Source: an uncultured Thermanaerothrix sp.
GTDB lineage: Bacteria; Chloroflexota; Anaerolineae; Anaerolineales; Anaerolineaceae
DNA length: 64,000 bases
Reading direction: 5' to 3'
NCBI RefSeq assembly: GCF_938028735.1
Contig: NZ_CALIMF010000007.1
Span: forward strand, 1 to 64,000
The notes below the pieces were generated by a model. That model was given only the letters and a program-made list of their open reading frames with translations. It was not told the origin of the DNA and did not search any database. Below, in pieces: positions 34,515-41,198 of this stretch. The number at the start of each line of letters is the position of its first letter. Position 1 is the stretch's first letter. The translations under genes were made by a program, and so were the position numbers.

Positions 34515-34650
34515 AGTTTTGCCTCCAAAGTCTAGCCAGGAAATTGTTAGCGGCGAGATCGGTGGGACATTTTTCATTTTACATCAGAAATGGGTAGAGA
34601 AGACGAGGTGAACCTTGCTCTTTAGCGGCTCTCGGGGCATAATCCAAGCG

Positions 34651-35763
34651 ATGAAAACCGCATATCCCCAAATTCTGGCTCTTTCTCATGGGCGTTTGAC
34701 CTTCCCCGCCTTTCTTCCTGATGCCACCTGGGGTGTGGTGCGTGGCGTAGACGCTACAGACCTGCTATCCATTGAAACCCCAGCGCTGATGATGAATACC
34801 TTCCATCTTGTACAAAAGCCTGGGGCGATGGTGGTGGAGGCCCTAGGCGGATTGCATCGAATGAGTGGGTGGCAGCGCCCGATTTTTACCGACTCAGGAG
34901 GGTTTCAGGCCTATTCTCTGATCCAGCAACAACCCCAGCGGGGGAAAATCAGCTCACAAGGCATCCACTATCAGCCCGAGGGGCGGCGGCGCAAATTCGT
35001 TCTAACCCCCGAAAGGGTAGTGGAGTGGCAGTTGCGATTTGGTAGCGATGTGTTGTTTTGCCTGGATGTCTGTACCCATGTAGATGCGCCCATCACCGCC
35101 CAGCGCGAGGCAGTAGATTTGACGATTGCTTGGGCTCGCCGCAGCAAAGTGGCTTATCAGCAATGGCTCGACCGGCACTCGCCGGAGGGTGGCAGACGCC
35201 CGTTGATCTTTGCGGTGGTTCAAGGCGGCGGGTCTTTCGAGTTGCGTCGTCAATGCGCTGAGGCCTTGCTGGAAATTGGATTTGATGGTTTTGGTTTTGG
35301 CGGTTGGCCGTTAGATCGTCAGGGACGTTTGCTCACGGACATTTTGGCGTGGGTGCGTGAGTGTATTCCACCGGAGTATCCACTCCACGCCTTGGGGATC
35401 GGCCATCCGCAAAACCTGGTCAGCGGTTATCACCTAGGGTACGGACTTTTTGATTGTGCAATGCCGACCCGCGATGCACGTCATGGCCGCCTTTACCGCT
35501 TTACCGCCTGGCCACCGCGTCCCTCGCCAGAGGATGAATCCTGGTGGGAATTTGTGCACATGGATAGTGAGCGCTTAACCCGTCAGGAGACCCCGATTTC
35601 TCCCTTTTGTGATGCGATTTGTTGTCGCAACTACAGTGCAGGGTATCTGCGCCATCTCTATTTATTGGGAGACAGCCTCTACCAGCGCTTGGCTACCTTG
35701 CATAACCTGCGCTTTATGCAGCAATTGAGCGCGTACCTGCACCTTGAGAGAGGAATGGCGTGA
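34651..35763 (+). CDS. tRNA-guanine transglycosylase family protein (non-canonical)
   Basis: MMNTFHLVQKPG, FTDSGGFQAYSLI, FCLDVCT, FGFGGWPLDR, ALGIGHPQNL...FDCAMPTRDARHGRLY, FCDAICCRNYSAGYLRHLY. Confidence 0.85.
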   Translation: MKTAYPQILALSHGRLTFPAFLPDATWGVVRGVDATDLLSIETPALMMNTFHLVQKPGAMVVEALGGLHRMSGWQRPIFTDSGGFQAYSLIQQQPQRGKISSQGIHYQPEGRRRKFVLTPERVVEWQLRFGSDVLFCLDVCTHVDAPITAQREAVDLTIAWARRSKVAYQQWLDRHSPEGGRRPLIFAVVQGGGSFELRRQCAEALLEIGFDGFGFGGWPLDRQGRLLTDILAWVRECIPPEYPLHALGIGHPQNLVSGYHLGYGLFDCAMPTRDARHGRLYRFTAWPPRPSPEDESWWEFVHMDSERLTRQETPISPFCDAICCRNYSAGYLRHLYLLGDSLYQRLATLHNLRFMQQLSAYLHLERGMA

Positions 35764-36578
35764 ACGAAGAAGGATATGTGGAAGAAGTGAGCCGTCAGGT
35801 ATTGTCACACCCGCGTTATCAACACTTAGAGCCGGGATTGGTGCGGGCGCTGGTGCGGCAGGAACTGAGAAAAGGGCGCTCCCCGCGTGAAATCGTCAAA
35901 ACCGTGCGTAGCAAGTTGCACCAAGTGGCTGCCTCTTATCTTGAGCGCCCCATTGACTACTCAGCCTGGCTGGAACGTTTGCGTACATTACCTCGAGATC
36001 GGCAGCATCCGCAGGTGAAGGCTTTTTGTCTGGAGATGATGCGCTTGCATGCTTCAACGCGTGAACGCTTGCCTTATCTGGAGCCTTTTTACCAGCAAGT
36101 TTTGGCTCCGGTGGGCCAGATTCATTCGTTGCTGGACTTGGCCAGTGGTTTGAATCCCTTGGCGACTCCCTGGCTACCTCTGGCCCCAGATGCCCAGGTG
36201 GTGGCCTGGGAAATTTTCGCTGATATGGTGGATTTTCTTAACCACTTCTTCACCCATCTAGGGATAAGGGGGCGGGCAGAACAACGAGATTTAAGCATGA
36301 CTCTGCCCGAACAACCGTTCCAAGTGGTCTTTCTTCTGAAGACTCTTCCCTGCCTGGAACAATTGGATAAAACACTCAGTCGCCGACTCCTTGAGTCAAT
36401 CCCAGCCGACTACCTTCTGGTCTCGTTTCCCACTTATAGCCTGGGTGGTCGCAGGAAGGGCATGCGGGTTAATTACGCTCAGCGCTTTGAGCAGCTGGTT
36501 GCTGATAAGCCTTGGAGCGTTTGGCGTTTCGACTTTCCGACCGAACTGGCTTTTTTGGTACGCAAAGGGGGACGCTAA
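35760..36578 (+). CDS. ArmA/Rmt-like (FmrO family) 16S rRNA methyltransferase homolog, copy 1
   Basis: HASTRERLPYLEPFYQQVL, LLDLASGLNPLATPWLPL, FADMVDFLNHFFTHLGIRGRAEQRDLS, VVFLLKTLPCLEQ, LLVSFPTYSLGGRRKGMRVNY, FDFPTELAFLVRK. Confidence 0.75.
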   Translation: MNEEGYVEEVSRQVLSHPRYQHLEPGLVRALVRQELRKGRSPREIVKTVRSKLHQVAASYLERPIDYSAWLERLRTLPRDRQHPQVKAFCLEMMRLHASTRERLPYLEPFYQQVLAPVGQIHSLLDLASGLNPLATPWLPLAPDAQVVAWEIFADMVDFLNHFFTHLGIRGRAEQRDLSMTLPEQPFQVVFLLKTLPCLEQLDKTLSRRLLESIPADYLLVSFPTYSLGGRRKGMRVNYAQRFEQLVADKPWSVWRFDFPTELAFLVRKGGR

Positions 36579-36580
36579 CG

Positions 36581-37402
36581 ATGAAGCACAAACCCGGCGA
36601 AAATCCCTGGGTGGAGCAGTTCATTCGCCAGGTGCGTCAATCTGCCAAATATCGCCACCTGGACTTGCCGGAGACTTTGTTACAAGATGTGATCACCCGT
36701 GCCTTAGCCCGTTATGAGAAACCCGCCCAGGCCATGGTAGCTGCCCGGCGAGTGTTGCATCAGGTTGTGGCGCCCTACCTGGGGGATCCAGATTACACTT
36801 GGGCACTGCAGGCACTGGAGGTTGCTGCGGATAAGGGGATGGAGGCGATACGCCAGGTGTGTCTCGAGTTACTTCGTTCTCATGCCTCCACCCGTGAGCG
36901 TTTACCCTTCCTTAAGACCTTCTACCAACGTTTATTTGAGGTGACCGGACTACCGGAGACCATTCTGGATCTGGCCTGTGGGCTTAATCCCCTGGCCTGG
37001 CCCTGGATGGGTCTACCGCCGACCACGCGTTACCTGGCTTTTGATATTCACCGCCCTCGTGTTGCCCTGATTAACGCCTTCTTTCAACGAATAGGCGTTG
37101 AGGGTGAAGCACTTCACCAAGACATCTTGGTGCAGCCTCCTAGGATCCCGGCGGAGGTGGCGTTCTTTTTCAAGGAGATTCACCGCTTCGAGGAACGGCA
37201 GCCCGGTTGTGCGCGTCCGTTCCTGGAGGCCATACCCGCGCGCTGGGTGTTAATCTCTCTGCCTTCGCGCAGCCTAAGCCGACGCCGTGATCTCTTGCCC
37301 TTTCATCAACGGCTTATGACCAGAATTCTGAATGGCCTGGACTGGGAAGTGCAAGAACTCTACTTTGAAAATGAGGTTGTCTTTTGTGTGCGTAAAGAAT
37401 GA
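36581..37402 (+). CDS. ArmA/Rmt-like (FmrO family) 16S rRNA methyltransferase homolog, copy 2 (divergent)
   Basis: HASTRERLPFLKTFYQRLFEVTGLPETILDLACGLNPLAWPWMGLPP, FDIHRPRVALINAFFQRIGVEGEALHQDI, FFFKEIHRFEERQPGCARPFLEAIPARWVLISLPSRSLSRRRDLL. Tandem with copy 1; ATG 36581. Confidence 0.7.
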   Translation: MKHKPGENPWVEQFIRQVRQSAKYRHLDLPETLLQDVITRALARYEKPAQAMVAARRVLHQVVAPYLGDPDYTWALQALEVAADKGMEAIRQVCLELLRSHASTRERLPFLKTFYQRLFEVTGLPETILDLACGLNPLAWPWMGLPPTTRYLAFDIHRPRVALINAFFQRIGVEGEALHQDILVQPPRIPAEVAFFFKEIHRFEERQPGCARPFLEAIPARWVLISLPSRSLSRRRDLLPFHQRLMTRILNGLDWEVQELYFENEVVFCVRKE

Positions 37403-38904
37403 AACCTGAACGGTCGTCTTCTCCCTTTTCTATGGAGCGTGCGCTGGAAGAAGCCCTAGCACGTTTTCGTCCCTTGCTTTCGGCTGAGGAATGGCAGGCC
37501 CTACTGGAAGAATTGAAGCGCCCGCTTGCGCCCGCATTGCGCCTGAATCCCCTAAAAGTCAACCCCGCCGAGGTACATATGTGGGCGGAGTGGTATGGCT
37601 GGCGCTTGCAACCAGTACCTTTCTGTCCGACCGGTTGGCAGGTTGTCGAATCAGCATACCCGGTTAGCCAGACAATTGAACACCGTTTGGGTTATTATTA
37701 TATTCAGGACGCAGCTTCTATGCTGCCAGTAGAGTTGTTTGATTTTCCCCCTGATGCGCGTCCGTTGATTCTGGATATGGCGGCTTCGCCGGGAGGAAAA
37801 ACCACACACTTAGTGGCGCGCACCAACGACCGTGGCTTGGTCATTGCTAACGATTCCTCGCATGAACGACTGACCGCTCTGCGGCTGGTCTTGCAAACCT
37901 GGGGAGGCATCAACTTGGCTATAACGGGGTTTCCGGGCGAACGATGGGGGGGATGGTACCCGGAAACGTTTGACGCCGTTTTGCTGGATGCCCCTTGTAG
38001 TATGCAATCCTTGCGACCATTGGAAAGTCATCCCATGCGCCCGATCAGCCAGGGGGAACAGCGACGGTTGGCACAGCGCCAGGTGGCACTGTTGCTCAGC
38101 GGATTGCGCGCGCTCAGAGTGGGGGGGCAAATGGTCTATGCTACTTGTACCCTGGCTCCTGAGGAAGACGAGGCTGTGCTGGAAGCGGCTCTACAGCGCC
38201 ACCCTGGAACATTTGAGATTGAATCGGTGGATGACCGATTGCCTGCGCCTGCCCCGGCTTTGGAGGCTACACCCGAGCACCGTTTTCCTCCTCAGGTGCG
38301 ACGTGCCGTGCGTCTCTGGCCTCATCGTTTCCACACTGCGGGATTTTTTGCCGCCCGCCTGCGTAAGGTGGCCCCAGTGCCTTCAGAATCAGGGATGACC
38401 TCCCCGCCGCAAACCCGAACGCGTCTGACTTGGTTGAGGCCGAGCGAAATGCGAGAGGTGTTGGAAGCGCTAAAGCGTGACTACGGGTTGGACATGCAAC
38501 CTCTGTTCGAGGTTCAAGTAGCGGGATTGGTTCGTCGAGAGGATTACCTTTATGCCGCCCCGCGCGCCTTTGAGGCTTATTTTGGCGCTTTACCCGTTGT
38601 GTCATTAGGGCTGCCTCTTCTGGAAGCCACCCCCGAGGGCTGGGTGTTGACCCATGAAGGCGTGGCGCGTTTTGGGCGTCAGTGCCAACACGGACGGGTG
38701 ATTCTGCCGGCTGAGATGGTAACCCCTTGGTTACGAGGAGAAGACGTGCCCTTGGTGATTCGTCCCCCCTGGCCAAAGACGCGGGTGGTAATTGTCACTG
38801 ATGTGCATGGGCGCGTTCTGGGGCGGGGGCGTGTGCAGCGGACTCAACTGAAAAATCTGCTCCCACGGCGGGTCGTGCTGCAGCAGCCACCTTCAGTGCC
38901 CTAG
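37399..38904 (+). CDS. RsmF/NOL1-NOP2-sun family rRNA cytosine-C5 methyltransferase
   Basis: ALRLNPLKVNPAEV, YYIQDAASMLPVELFDFPPDARPLILDMAASPGGKTTHL, VLLDAPCSMQSLRP, MVYATCTLAPEEDEAVLEAAL; C-terminal RsmF/PUA-like extension. Confidence 0.88.
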   Translation: MKPERSSSPFSMERALEEALARFRPLLSAEEWQALLEELKRPLAPALRLNPLKVNPAEVHMWAEWYGWRLQPVPFCPTGWQVVESAYPVSQTIEHRLGYYYIQDAASMLPVELFDFPPDARPLILDMAASPGGKTTHLVARTNDRGLVIANDSSHERLTALRLVLQTWGGINLAITGFPGERWGGWYPETFDAVLLDAPCSMQSLRPLESHPMRPISQGEQRRLAQRQVALLLSGLRALRVGGQMVYATCTLAPEEDEAVLEAALQRHPGTFEIESVDDRLPAPAPALEATPEHRFPPQVRRAVRLWPHRFHTAGFFAARLRKVAPVPSESGMTSPPQTRTRLTWLRPSEMREVLEALKRDYGLDMQPLFEVQVAGLVRREDYLYAAPRAFEAYFGALPVVSLGLPLLEATPEGWVLTHEGVARFGRQCQHGRVILPAEMVTPWLRGEDVPLVIRPPWPKTRVVIVTDVHGRVLGRGRVQRTQLKNLLPRRVVLQQPPSVP

Positions 38905-39641
38905 AGATCGTTGAGTTCATAGAGGGTGAGCGCGGCCCCAAGGATGGCGGCGGTTTCCATGCGTAAGATGCGTGTTCCCAGAGAACACGTCAGCCAACCA
39001 GCTTGCTGCGCTCGGAGAACTTCATTCGGGCTCAGGCCCCCTTCTGGCCCAATGATCAACGCTACTTCCTCAGGAGACATGGACAGGCTGCGAATGGCCT
39101 GCCGCAAGGAACGTTGATTTTCACCTTCCCAAGCCATGAGGCAAAGGGAGGTGGTGGTTTGGGCCTGCTTTATTGCCCGTTCCAGTTCGAGAGGAGGATG
39201 AACTTCAGGGATTCGTCCCCGCCCACATTGTTCGGCGGCCTCCTGGACAATACGCCGCCAGCGGGGAAGTTTCTCGCGAGCAACAGTAATTTCTCGCACC
39301 AAGGTGCGTTGGGTAATCAGGGGAACAAAAGCGATTATCCCGACTTCAGTGCCCTTTTGTAGCACCCATTCGAATTTCTCCCGCTGAGTCAGCCCCAAGT
39401 AAAGGGTCAGGCGGGTGCGGGGTTCGCTGGTAATCGGCAAAGTCTCTAGTATCACCCCCGTAGCCGAAGAGGGTTGGAGATTTTCCAGCCGTACGCGGAA
39501 GGCCGCTCCGTTGTTATCGAGGACCACCACCTCTTGACCGGTTTTCATCCGCAAGACGGCGTAAATTTGGTGCGCGGTTTCAGGCGGGAAGCTGACCCAC
39601 GAGGCGTGAATGCAATCGGGGGGGAGAAAAAATCGGTGCAT
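38901..39641 (-). CDS. rsmE: 16S rRNA (uracil1498-N3)-methyltransferase
   Basis: MHRFFLPPD, QIYAVLRMKTGQEVVVLD, QREKFEWVLQKGTEVGIIAFVPLITQRT, AAEQCGRGRIPEV, LIIGPEGGLSPNEV, LGTRILRMETAAILGAALTLYEL. Confidence 0.95.
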   Translation of the reverse strand: MHRFFLPPDCIHASWVSFPPETAHQIYAVLRMKTGQEVVVLDNNGAAFRVRLENLQPSSATGVILETLPITSEPRTRLTLYLGLTQREKFEWVLQKGTEVGIIAFVPLITQRTLVREITVAREKLPRWRRIVQEAAEQCGRGRIPEVHPPLELERAIKQAQTTTSLCLMAWEGENQRSLRQAIRSLSMSPEEVALIIGPEGGLSPNEVLRAQQAGWLTCSLGTRILRMETAAILGAALTLYELNDL

Positions 39642-39744
39642 GGCTAAAAAAATCAAACGAGGGCTGCGGGATTTACGCTAAATGGATTATACTTGGGGCG
39701 CGATTTTTGAGGAGCCACATCCGTGGGTGTTGCCGGGGAAAAGG

Positions 39745-40473
39745 ATGAATCAACAACTGGTTTCAGAACGTTCTTATCGTTATCTGGATCTTATCACGGC
39801 GCTTTTTGTTACCGTGCTAATTGTGAGCAACATCGCTTCCTCGGCCAAGATTGTGGATTGGGGCATTTCTGTTTTTGGGGTTCGCCTGGCATTTGATGCT
39901 GGCACCCTGCTTTTTCCAATTAGTTATATTTTTGGCGATGTGCTGACTGAGGTCTATGGGTTTCGCCGCTCGCGTCGAGTAATCTGGACCGGCTTTGCCA
40001 TGTTGGGGTTGAGCGCGCTGATTTTTGGAATGGTGCGCGGACTGCCGGGTGAGGCTACCTGGGAGCAATATGCCGGTCAGCAAGCCTATGATGCCATCCT
40101 GGGCGGCATGTTCAGCGGGGGGATCGTCATTGCTAGCCTGGTAGCCTATTTGGCAGGGGAGTTCAGTAATTCCATTGTGTTGGCGCGGATGAAGGTCTTA
40201 ACCCGAGGGCGTTGGTTGTGGATGCGAACCATCGGGAGCACCTTGGTAGGCGAGGGGGTAGATACAGCCGTGTTTATTTTAGTTGCCTCGTTGACCGGTG
40301 TCTTTCCCTGGTCGCTTTTTGGCACGCTGGTGCTGACCAATTATCTCTTCAAAGTCGGGGTGGAGGTCATCATGACCCCGTTGACCTACCAAGTGGTTAA
40401 CGCTCTCAAGCGGGCTGAGAGCGAGGATTATTATGATACTCACACGCGCTTTACCCCCTTTGCCCTGACATAA
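39745..40473 (+). CDS. VUT-family queuosine precursor transporter (YhhQ-like)
   Basis: LITALFVTVLIVSNIASSAKI...FDAGTLLFPISYIFGDVLTEVYGFRRSRRVIWTGF...GSTLVGEGVDTAVFI...TNYLFKVGVEVIMTPLTYQVV. Confidence 0.9.
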   Translation: MNQQLVSERSYRYLDLITALFVTVLIVSNIASSAKIVDWGISVFGVRLAFDAGTLLFPISYIFGDVLTEVYGFRRSRRVIWTGFAMLGLSALIFGMVRGLPGEATWEQYAGQQAYDAILGGMFSGGIVIASLVAYLAGEFSNSIVLARMKVLTRGRWLWMRTIGSTLVGEGVDTAVFILVASLTGVFPWSLFGTLVLTNYLFKVGVEVIMTPLTYQVVNALKRAESEDYYDTHTRFTPFALT

Positions 40474-40490: not shown

Positions 40491-41198
40491 TCAATCCGCT
40501 TCTTCGCTTAGAGTAGAGTCAGTGGTTGTGGTGTATCCCTTACCAGCAATCACAACCACGTACTCCCCTCTCAGGGGCTCGCTTTCAAAACGGGCTTTCA
40601 ATTCGGCGAGGCTACCGCGGTAAATCGTTTCGAACATCTTGGTCAGATCATTAGCGATGGCAGCTGGGCGATTGCCGTAGACTGCTAGCGCATCGGTGAG
40701 AAACTCACGCAGGCGATAGGGACTCTCGTAGAAAATCAGGGTATGGGGGCTTTCTCGATCGATCTCCAGAAAGCGGCGACGTGCACCGGGCTTACGGGGT
40801 GGGAAGCCGCGGAATGTGAAAGAATGTACGGGCAGGCCAGAGAGGATAAGAGCTGGAATGAGGGCAGTTGGGCCGGGGATGGCGGTTAATGGTATGCCGG
40901 CAGCAATAACGGCGCGCACTAGGACGTAGCCGGGGTCAGAAATGCCCGGCGTGCCCGCATCGGTGACCAGGGCCAAGGATTTACCCTCTTGGAGCAGTCG
41001 CATCAAACGCGGTAATATCTTTTTCTCGTTTTCTTCGCGGAACGAAATCTGGGGCTTGTGAATATCATAGTGCTTCAACAGAACCCCGGTACGGCGGGTG
41101 TCCTCGCTAACAACATAATCCACTAGGCGCAAAGTTTCGAGCGCACGCTGAGAAATATCTCCCAAGTTGCCGATAGGGGTGGAAACCAGATAGAGCAT
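40491..41198 (-). CDS. rsmI: 16S rRNA (cytidine1402-2'-O)-methyltransferase
   Basis: [97 protein letters not shown]. Confidence 0.95.

Follow-up and report, generated by a model that had tools for sequence, protein, structure and literature searches.

Paired FmrO-type methyltransferases, one with a rebuilt target side, in a putative decoding-centre operon of Anaerolineae

Introduction

Methyltransferases of the Arm/Rmt/Sgm family are otherwise known from antibiotic producers and resistance plasmids. The window, which is the whole 64,000-nucleotide stretch of DNA analysed here, is part of the genome of a close relative of Thermanaerothrix daxensis (Anaerolineae) and holds two adjoining same-strand genes for FmrO/Rmt-type products, the first with a GTG start and the second with an ATG start (hereafter A and B, Table 1). 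What would such a bacterium do with two enzymes of this kind, and would both act on the same nucleotide? A literature search for FmrO in Chloroflexi found no papers. The initial annotation had placed both genes in the FmrO/Rmt family and read them as tandem copies with complementary motif loss, each retaining what the other had altered, and it offered subfunctionalisation, a heterodimer or a new rRNA/tRNA target as explanations.

Table 1. Positions of genes and diagnostic residues in the window
Feature	Coordinates	Strand	Remarks
TGT2	34615..35763	+	likely true start ATG 34651; PF01702 268.5 bits; stop overlaps gene 1 start
FmrO-A (gene 1)	35760..36578	+	PF07091 159.5 bits; predicted intrinsic 16S rRNA m7G1405 methyltransferase
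FmrO-A S129 codon (ASGLNP for ACGLNP)	36144..36146	+	sporadic, 5/154 A
FmrO-A E151 codon, motif-II acidic residue	36210..36212	+	D in 98% of A
FmrO-A GGRRKGM loop	36444..36464	+	equals RmtC residues 239-245 (alignment to 8ghu)
FmrO-B (gene 2)	36581..37402	+	PF07091 140.3 bits; separate FmrO clade, target-side motifs rebuilt
FmrO-B R160 codon	37058..37060	+	invariant, 96/96 B; A has M/L/Q
FmrO-B K198-E-I-H-R-F-E204, motif IV signature	37172..37192	+	A counterpart KTLPCLE
FmrO-B SRRRDLL loop in place of GGRxKGM	37277..37297	+	shorter by one residue, mostly without Met
RsmF-like m5C methyltransferase	37399..38904	+	PF01189 118 bits, PF17125 52.8 bits; RsmB/F catalytic and RsmF N-terminal domain
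RsmE-like methyltransferase (U1498 in E. coli)	38901..39656	-	PF04452 155 bits; above cut-off for PRK11713.1-5 and TIGR00046
Queuosine-precursor transporter	39682..40473	+	TIGR00697 113.7 bits, cut-off 50.95
RsmI-like (C1402 2'-O-methyltransferase in E. coli)	40491..41198	-	named from sequence alone

Two FmrO-type genes in a conserved operon

Both genes were found with the motifs first quoted for them and with the end of the second at 37402, and the family placement held in a profile search. The matches to PF07091 (Pfam FmrO, cut-off 27 bits) extended over positions 4-252 of 255 for A and 2-250 of 255 for B, with E values of 1e-46 and 1e-40, a homology far above chance level. A and B were the only FmrO copies in the whole genome. 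The best solved-structure match of A was Sgm (3lcu, E 7e-45), and Sgm was also nearest for B. NCBIfam NF000466 (Rmt equivalog, cut-off 250 bits) gave 199 bits for the window A and 166.9 for the window B, 193-244 for other A proteins and 169-210 for other B proteins, all below the cut-off, and we file neither A nor B as an Rmt family enzyme. A contig search with one protein returned the Thermanaerothrix daxensis counterpart of gene 1, 88% identical, as its sole match. Compared with this species, purifying selection was seen on all four operon genes, with a dN/dS of 0.060 for A and 0.085 for B (NG86; dS was about 1 and near saturation).

The gene before A encodes TGT2, a divergent second paralogue of tRNA-guanine transglycosylase. 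TGT2 and gene 1 overlap (GTGA), genes 1 and 2 lie two bases apart, and gene 2 overlaps the RsmF-like gene (ATGA), and thus the four genes look translationally coupled. Linked same-strand pairs with A before B were found 78 times, and in 70 cases the HMM-matched ends were -45 to +61 bases apart. The gene immediately before A was TGT2 in 119 of 151 loci, and directly downstream of B stood RsmF in 70 of 94 loci and RsmE in six more; these adjacency counts are lower bounds because distances were capped at fixed values and each neighbour was represented by a single reference protein. In other Chloroflexota classes TGT2 preceded A in 21 of 27 loci. RsmE, RsmI and the queuosine-precursor transporter often came after the pair, and RsmI homologues recurred beside it in many genomes. 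A and B were unlinked in 13 genomes; in such cases TGT2 stayed beside A, and the neighbour of B was RsmF or, in other families, RsmE.

The order of genes varied in a few places. In family f67 (loci L179, L182 and L183) RsmE and RsmI, not RsmF, directly followed B; the partner methylase of B varies there, yet it stays in the decoding-site set. In two genomes, G386 (L114) and G362 (L167), the order TGT2-A-RsmF was kept with B missing and A directly before RsmF; B appears to have been lost cleanly here, inside a single genus. In a genome without TGT2 (G253, L176), the gene before RsmF was a lone FmrO that evolves fast and has no KGM loop.

Housekeeping methylation near G1405 and A1408 is carried out by RsmF (C1407), RsmI/RsmH (C1402) and RsmE (U1498), and previous work showed that Sgm and RmtC block RsmF and that ArmA blocks RsmI (reviewed in PMC12406665). 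Three of these enzymes, RsmF, RsmE and RsmI, are the genomic neighbours of A and B. Their targets flank G1405, but they belong to other enzyme families and are not homologous to A or B. A resident G1405-type enzyme beside them fits a decoding-site pathway, although such neighbours do not fix a target for A or B. The helix-44 target CACCGCCCGTCAC was intact in every 16S sequence found that spans it. A change in the sequence of the 16S target site was considered and rejected, as helix 44 was identical in genomes with and without FmrO.

A keeps the target side and B has rebuilt it

Complementary motif loss was rejected because S129 is sporadic in A. The ASGLNP motif is present in copy 1 as first noted, but it is not a systematic alteration, since only five of the 154 A proteins carried it (genomes G000, G324, G232, G400 and G133); only copy 2 was systematically altered. 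The window A also has E151 in its SAM site, and this D151E change was restricted to the genus of the window (G000 and G324). At all other target-side positions the window A was canonical (K194, P197, C198, E200 and GGRxKGM). Both the target loop SxGGRxKGM...Y and the motif-IV segment K-x-x-P-C-L-E characterised A and were present in full in the window copy, and neither was found in B. Among A proteins from genomes with both genes, K194 and G234 were conserved in 100%, P197 and M235 in 97% and C198 in 88%. The region of RmtC that corresponds to the GGRRKGM loop presumably holds the flipped G1405.

The SLPSRSLSRRRDLL change that had been noted in copy 2 was real and turned out to belong to a whole clade. 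The motif-IV segment was K-E-x-[HP]-R in all 96 B proteins, with K198, E199 and R202 fixed and with H (86%) or P (14%) at position 201. In the loop, the G of KGM was deleted in 100% of the B proteins, while the Met was kept in 15% and changed to Leu in 75%. These changes were absent from A, from Sgm and from all Rmt enzymes tested, and thus are not differences common to all ordinary homologues.

In contrast to the target side, the SAM-binding motifs (D-x-A-C-G-L-N-P, the motif-II acid and the motif-III D) were found in both clades. D130 was conserved in 96/96 B proteins and C133 and D155 each in 95/96; A132, P137 and D181 were kept as well, and so were the N-terminal basic docking residues K23 and R56. 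An AlphaFold2 model of B (pLDDT 94.7) had its best PDB match in Sgm (3lcv, TM 0.84-0.89), followed by RmtC, RmtB, RmtF and ArmA, so that the Sgm/Rmt fold is assigned to B from a model and to A from sequence only. The fold and the SAM motifs are common to A, B and the producer-type m7G1405 methyltransferase Sgm (3lcu/3lcv); A keeps the whole target-side set of Sgm at a median identity of 32%, whereas B, at a median of 29%, is without it. Like A, the plasmid enzymes RmtB2/C/D/E/F/G/H belong to PF07091, and A is about 30% identical to them. The combination of a kept cofactor side and a rebuilt target side suggests that B is no dead copy but remains active, on a different target.

Age and distribution of the two clades

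Some 250 FmrO proteins were typed by their motif-IV segment, and the types were then tested by trees. B formed a single clade (FastTree 100; IQ-TREE 100/99, and 100/100 after plasmid Rmt sequences were added), separate from A, Sgm and RmtB2/C/D/E/F/G/H. Sgm was placed beside A, and the plasmid Rmt group formed its own cluster (91/96). Since the trees set B apart and Sgm beside A, the A-B split would have roughly the same age as the Sgm split, if it is not older. The root depends on the long Rmt branches, among which RmtC and RmtE2 were flagged, and therefore it is likely, not proven, from these trees that the divergence of A and B predates or roughly coincides with the split between Anaerolineae A and actinobacterial Sgm. 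A recent tandem duplication was ruled out by the trees; A and B are two old Anaerolineae lineages, with a median A-B identity of 30% within one genome. The idea of a tandem duplicate with reciprocal subfunctionalisation thus found no support, given the age of the split and the retention of the ancestral motifs in A. We file B as a new, previously uncharacterised branch of the FmrO superfamily, sister to the A-type.

Occurrence was surveyed in Chloroflexota genomes, many of them metagenome-assembled, and the counts refer to genomes drawn and not to independent events. In the family-level sample 85 of 101 genomes carried FmrO, almost always in exactly two copies, while a class-wide draw gave 75 of 298, mostly with a single copy, and a phylum-wide draw 58 of 301. 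Both A and B were present in 93 genomes; 60 had only A and three only B, and of these three, two were less than 80% complete and the third (G214) 94% complete. Thus, A can do without B, and B is rarely found without A. The loss of B in G362 and G386, together with the absence of both genes from many relatives, such as family f2, shows that the pair is dispensable.

Proposed function of A and B

Drawing on homology, clade structure, residue conservation, the operon and co-occurrence, we favour, with modest confidence, the reading that A and B are residents of a decoding-centre operon, in which A, as an intrinsic methyltransferase, would make m7G1405 and B would be active too, methylating a different target close to G1405. 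Against this reading stand S129 and E151 in the SAM site of the window A, the NF000466 scores below the Rmt cut-off and the dispensability of the pair. In the proposed mechanism, where enzyme activity, the targets, the docking and a possible order of action are all predictions, A would dock on the 30S subunit via its N-terminal domain, flip out G1405 of helix 44 and methylate N7 in the manner of Sgm and the Rmt enzymes. B would be a SAM-dependent methyltransferase on the same subunit, having retained the cofactor pocket and the docking residues. Its motif IV (TxPCL to ExHRF) and its base-clamping loop, with GGRxKGM lost, are rebuilt, so that another nucleotide, probably in the vicinity of G1405, would be presented. 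A new rRNA/tRNA target, as suggested at the outset for the pair, may therefore apply to copy 2 alone, for which it is the best-supported reading of the sequences. A is filed here as an FmrO-superfamily protein that would work like an m7G1405 methyltransferase, and B is not filed as such an enzyme because the target-side features were tested and found to be missing.

The retention of two paralogues together, one with altered catalytic motifs, recalls Trm61-Trm6, an active/inactive tRNA methylase pair, and B could likewise be a partner subunit that binds SAM or RNA and tunes A in a heteromer. That B is almost never found without A, that the genes adjoin and that the within-paralogue identities correlate (r 0.70, partly expected from shared ancestry) would agree with this. 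However, B retains all of its SAM motifs, which is not typical of a pseudo-enzyme subunit, A occurs alone in many genomes and stays where B was deleted, the two genes can be unlinked, and Sgm and the Rmt enzymes are active alone. At six loci A and B stand in one frame with a single stop between them, and an AlphaFold2 model of one such read-through pair (L163) gave two folded halves without a confident contact (pLDDT 83.7, pTM 0.51). The heterodimer of the initial annotation therefore gained no support from the fused model, which is weak evidence given its shallow alignment of six paired sequences and its short linker. We consider a partner subunit rather unlikely. Methylation of G1405 by both enzymes, with B redundant or differently timed, for example on an assembly intermediate, appears distinctly improbable. 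The two have the same fold, N-terminal docking residues and operon, but two features kept in A and Sgm and largely in Rmt enzymes, the K-x-x-P-C-L segment and the GGRxKGM loop, are missing from B, which has other invariant residues instead.

With Sgm as the nearest solved structure and plasmid resistance genes among the close homologues, A and B could serve aminoglycoside self-protection or resistance, of the producer type or acquired. We find this improbable, since the genes are chromosomal, occur in 85 of the 101 family genomes with conserved synteny among rRNA- and tRNA-modification genes, and reach a best plasmid identity of about 30-35%. Unlike producer-type Sgm, they are found class-wide beside TGT2 and decoding-site methylases, and no producer cluster was noticed in passing among their neighbours. 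The best explanation is that A and B are resident and vertically inherited and are not acquired resistance genes. A gene of the Arm/Rmt/Sgm type would then be resident in much of a phylum and operon-linked to rRNA enzymes for neighbouring positions, and a permanently m7G1405-modified ribosome may therefore be normal in these bacteria. B adds a conserved branch with a rebuilt target pocket.

TGT2 and the origin of plasmid rmt genes

The first gene of the operon scored far above the PF01702 cut-off of 26.3 bits, but at 274.1 bits it stayed below that of TIGR00430 (Q_tRNA_tgt, 306.75 bits); a canonical TGT was found elsewhere in the genome (G000:C2, 530 bits). The catalytic residues D93, D151, Q203 and D280 were conserved in TGT2, and its base-pocket motif was GGWPLD, compared to GG(L)(S/A)VGE in the canonical preQ1 pocket. 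Among 111 TGT2 proteins the pocket was conserved at W (98%), P (100%), L (95%) and D (100%). At the Zn-ligand position 334 (window 35600-35763) the window copy had Ala, where 95% of TGT2 proteins have Cys, and a Cys was found at 336 instead. At least two TGT matches were seen in 49 of 75 FmrO-positive and 35 of 223 FmrO-negative genomes, many of the latter with odd split matches. It is conceivable but very improbable that the operon makes an unprecedented modification set in 16S rRNA, with A forming m7G1405, B modifying a second helix-44 nucleotide and TGT2 exchanging a guanine for a 7-deazaguanine. If TGT2 did act on 16S rRNA, it would be the first base-exchange enzyme on rRNA, and if the full decoding-centre set existed, the clinical rmt genes would be single enzymes torn from a pathway.

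Five plasmid loci (L335, L336, L337, L341 and L342) had a TGT2-type gene upstream of an rmt gene, as for A. Upstream of rmtD1, rmtG and rmtB2 the TGT had the motif GGWPL(D/G), and upstream of rmtE2 a truncated TGT had GGFPVN. The plasmid TGTs were 41-48% identical to the window TGT2, compared to about 33% for the enterobacterial chromosomal TGT, and they grouped with TGT2 against the canonical TGTs of Chloroflexota (SH-aLRT 100). The neighbour of rmtG was previously noted as a 'putative tRNA ribosyltransferase' (PMC3904158). The TGT2-type gene upstream suggests that plasmid rmtB2, rmtD, rmtG and rmtE2 may have been captured from TGT2-FmrO operons; the identity between A and the plasmid enzymes is only about 30%. 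A plasmid-borne B was considered and rejected, as the matches listed were all Rmt proteins with 32-35% identity and less than 80% query coverage, and no B stood beside rmt at any plasmid rmt locus inspected. The common TGT2-rmt gene order is a concrete lead to the source of plasmid rmtB, rmtD, rmtE and rmtG. At the rmtB2 locus, a metallophosphoesterase gene lies between the TGT and the rmt gene.
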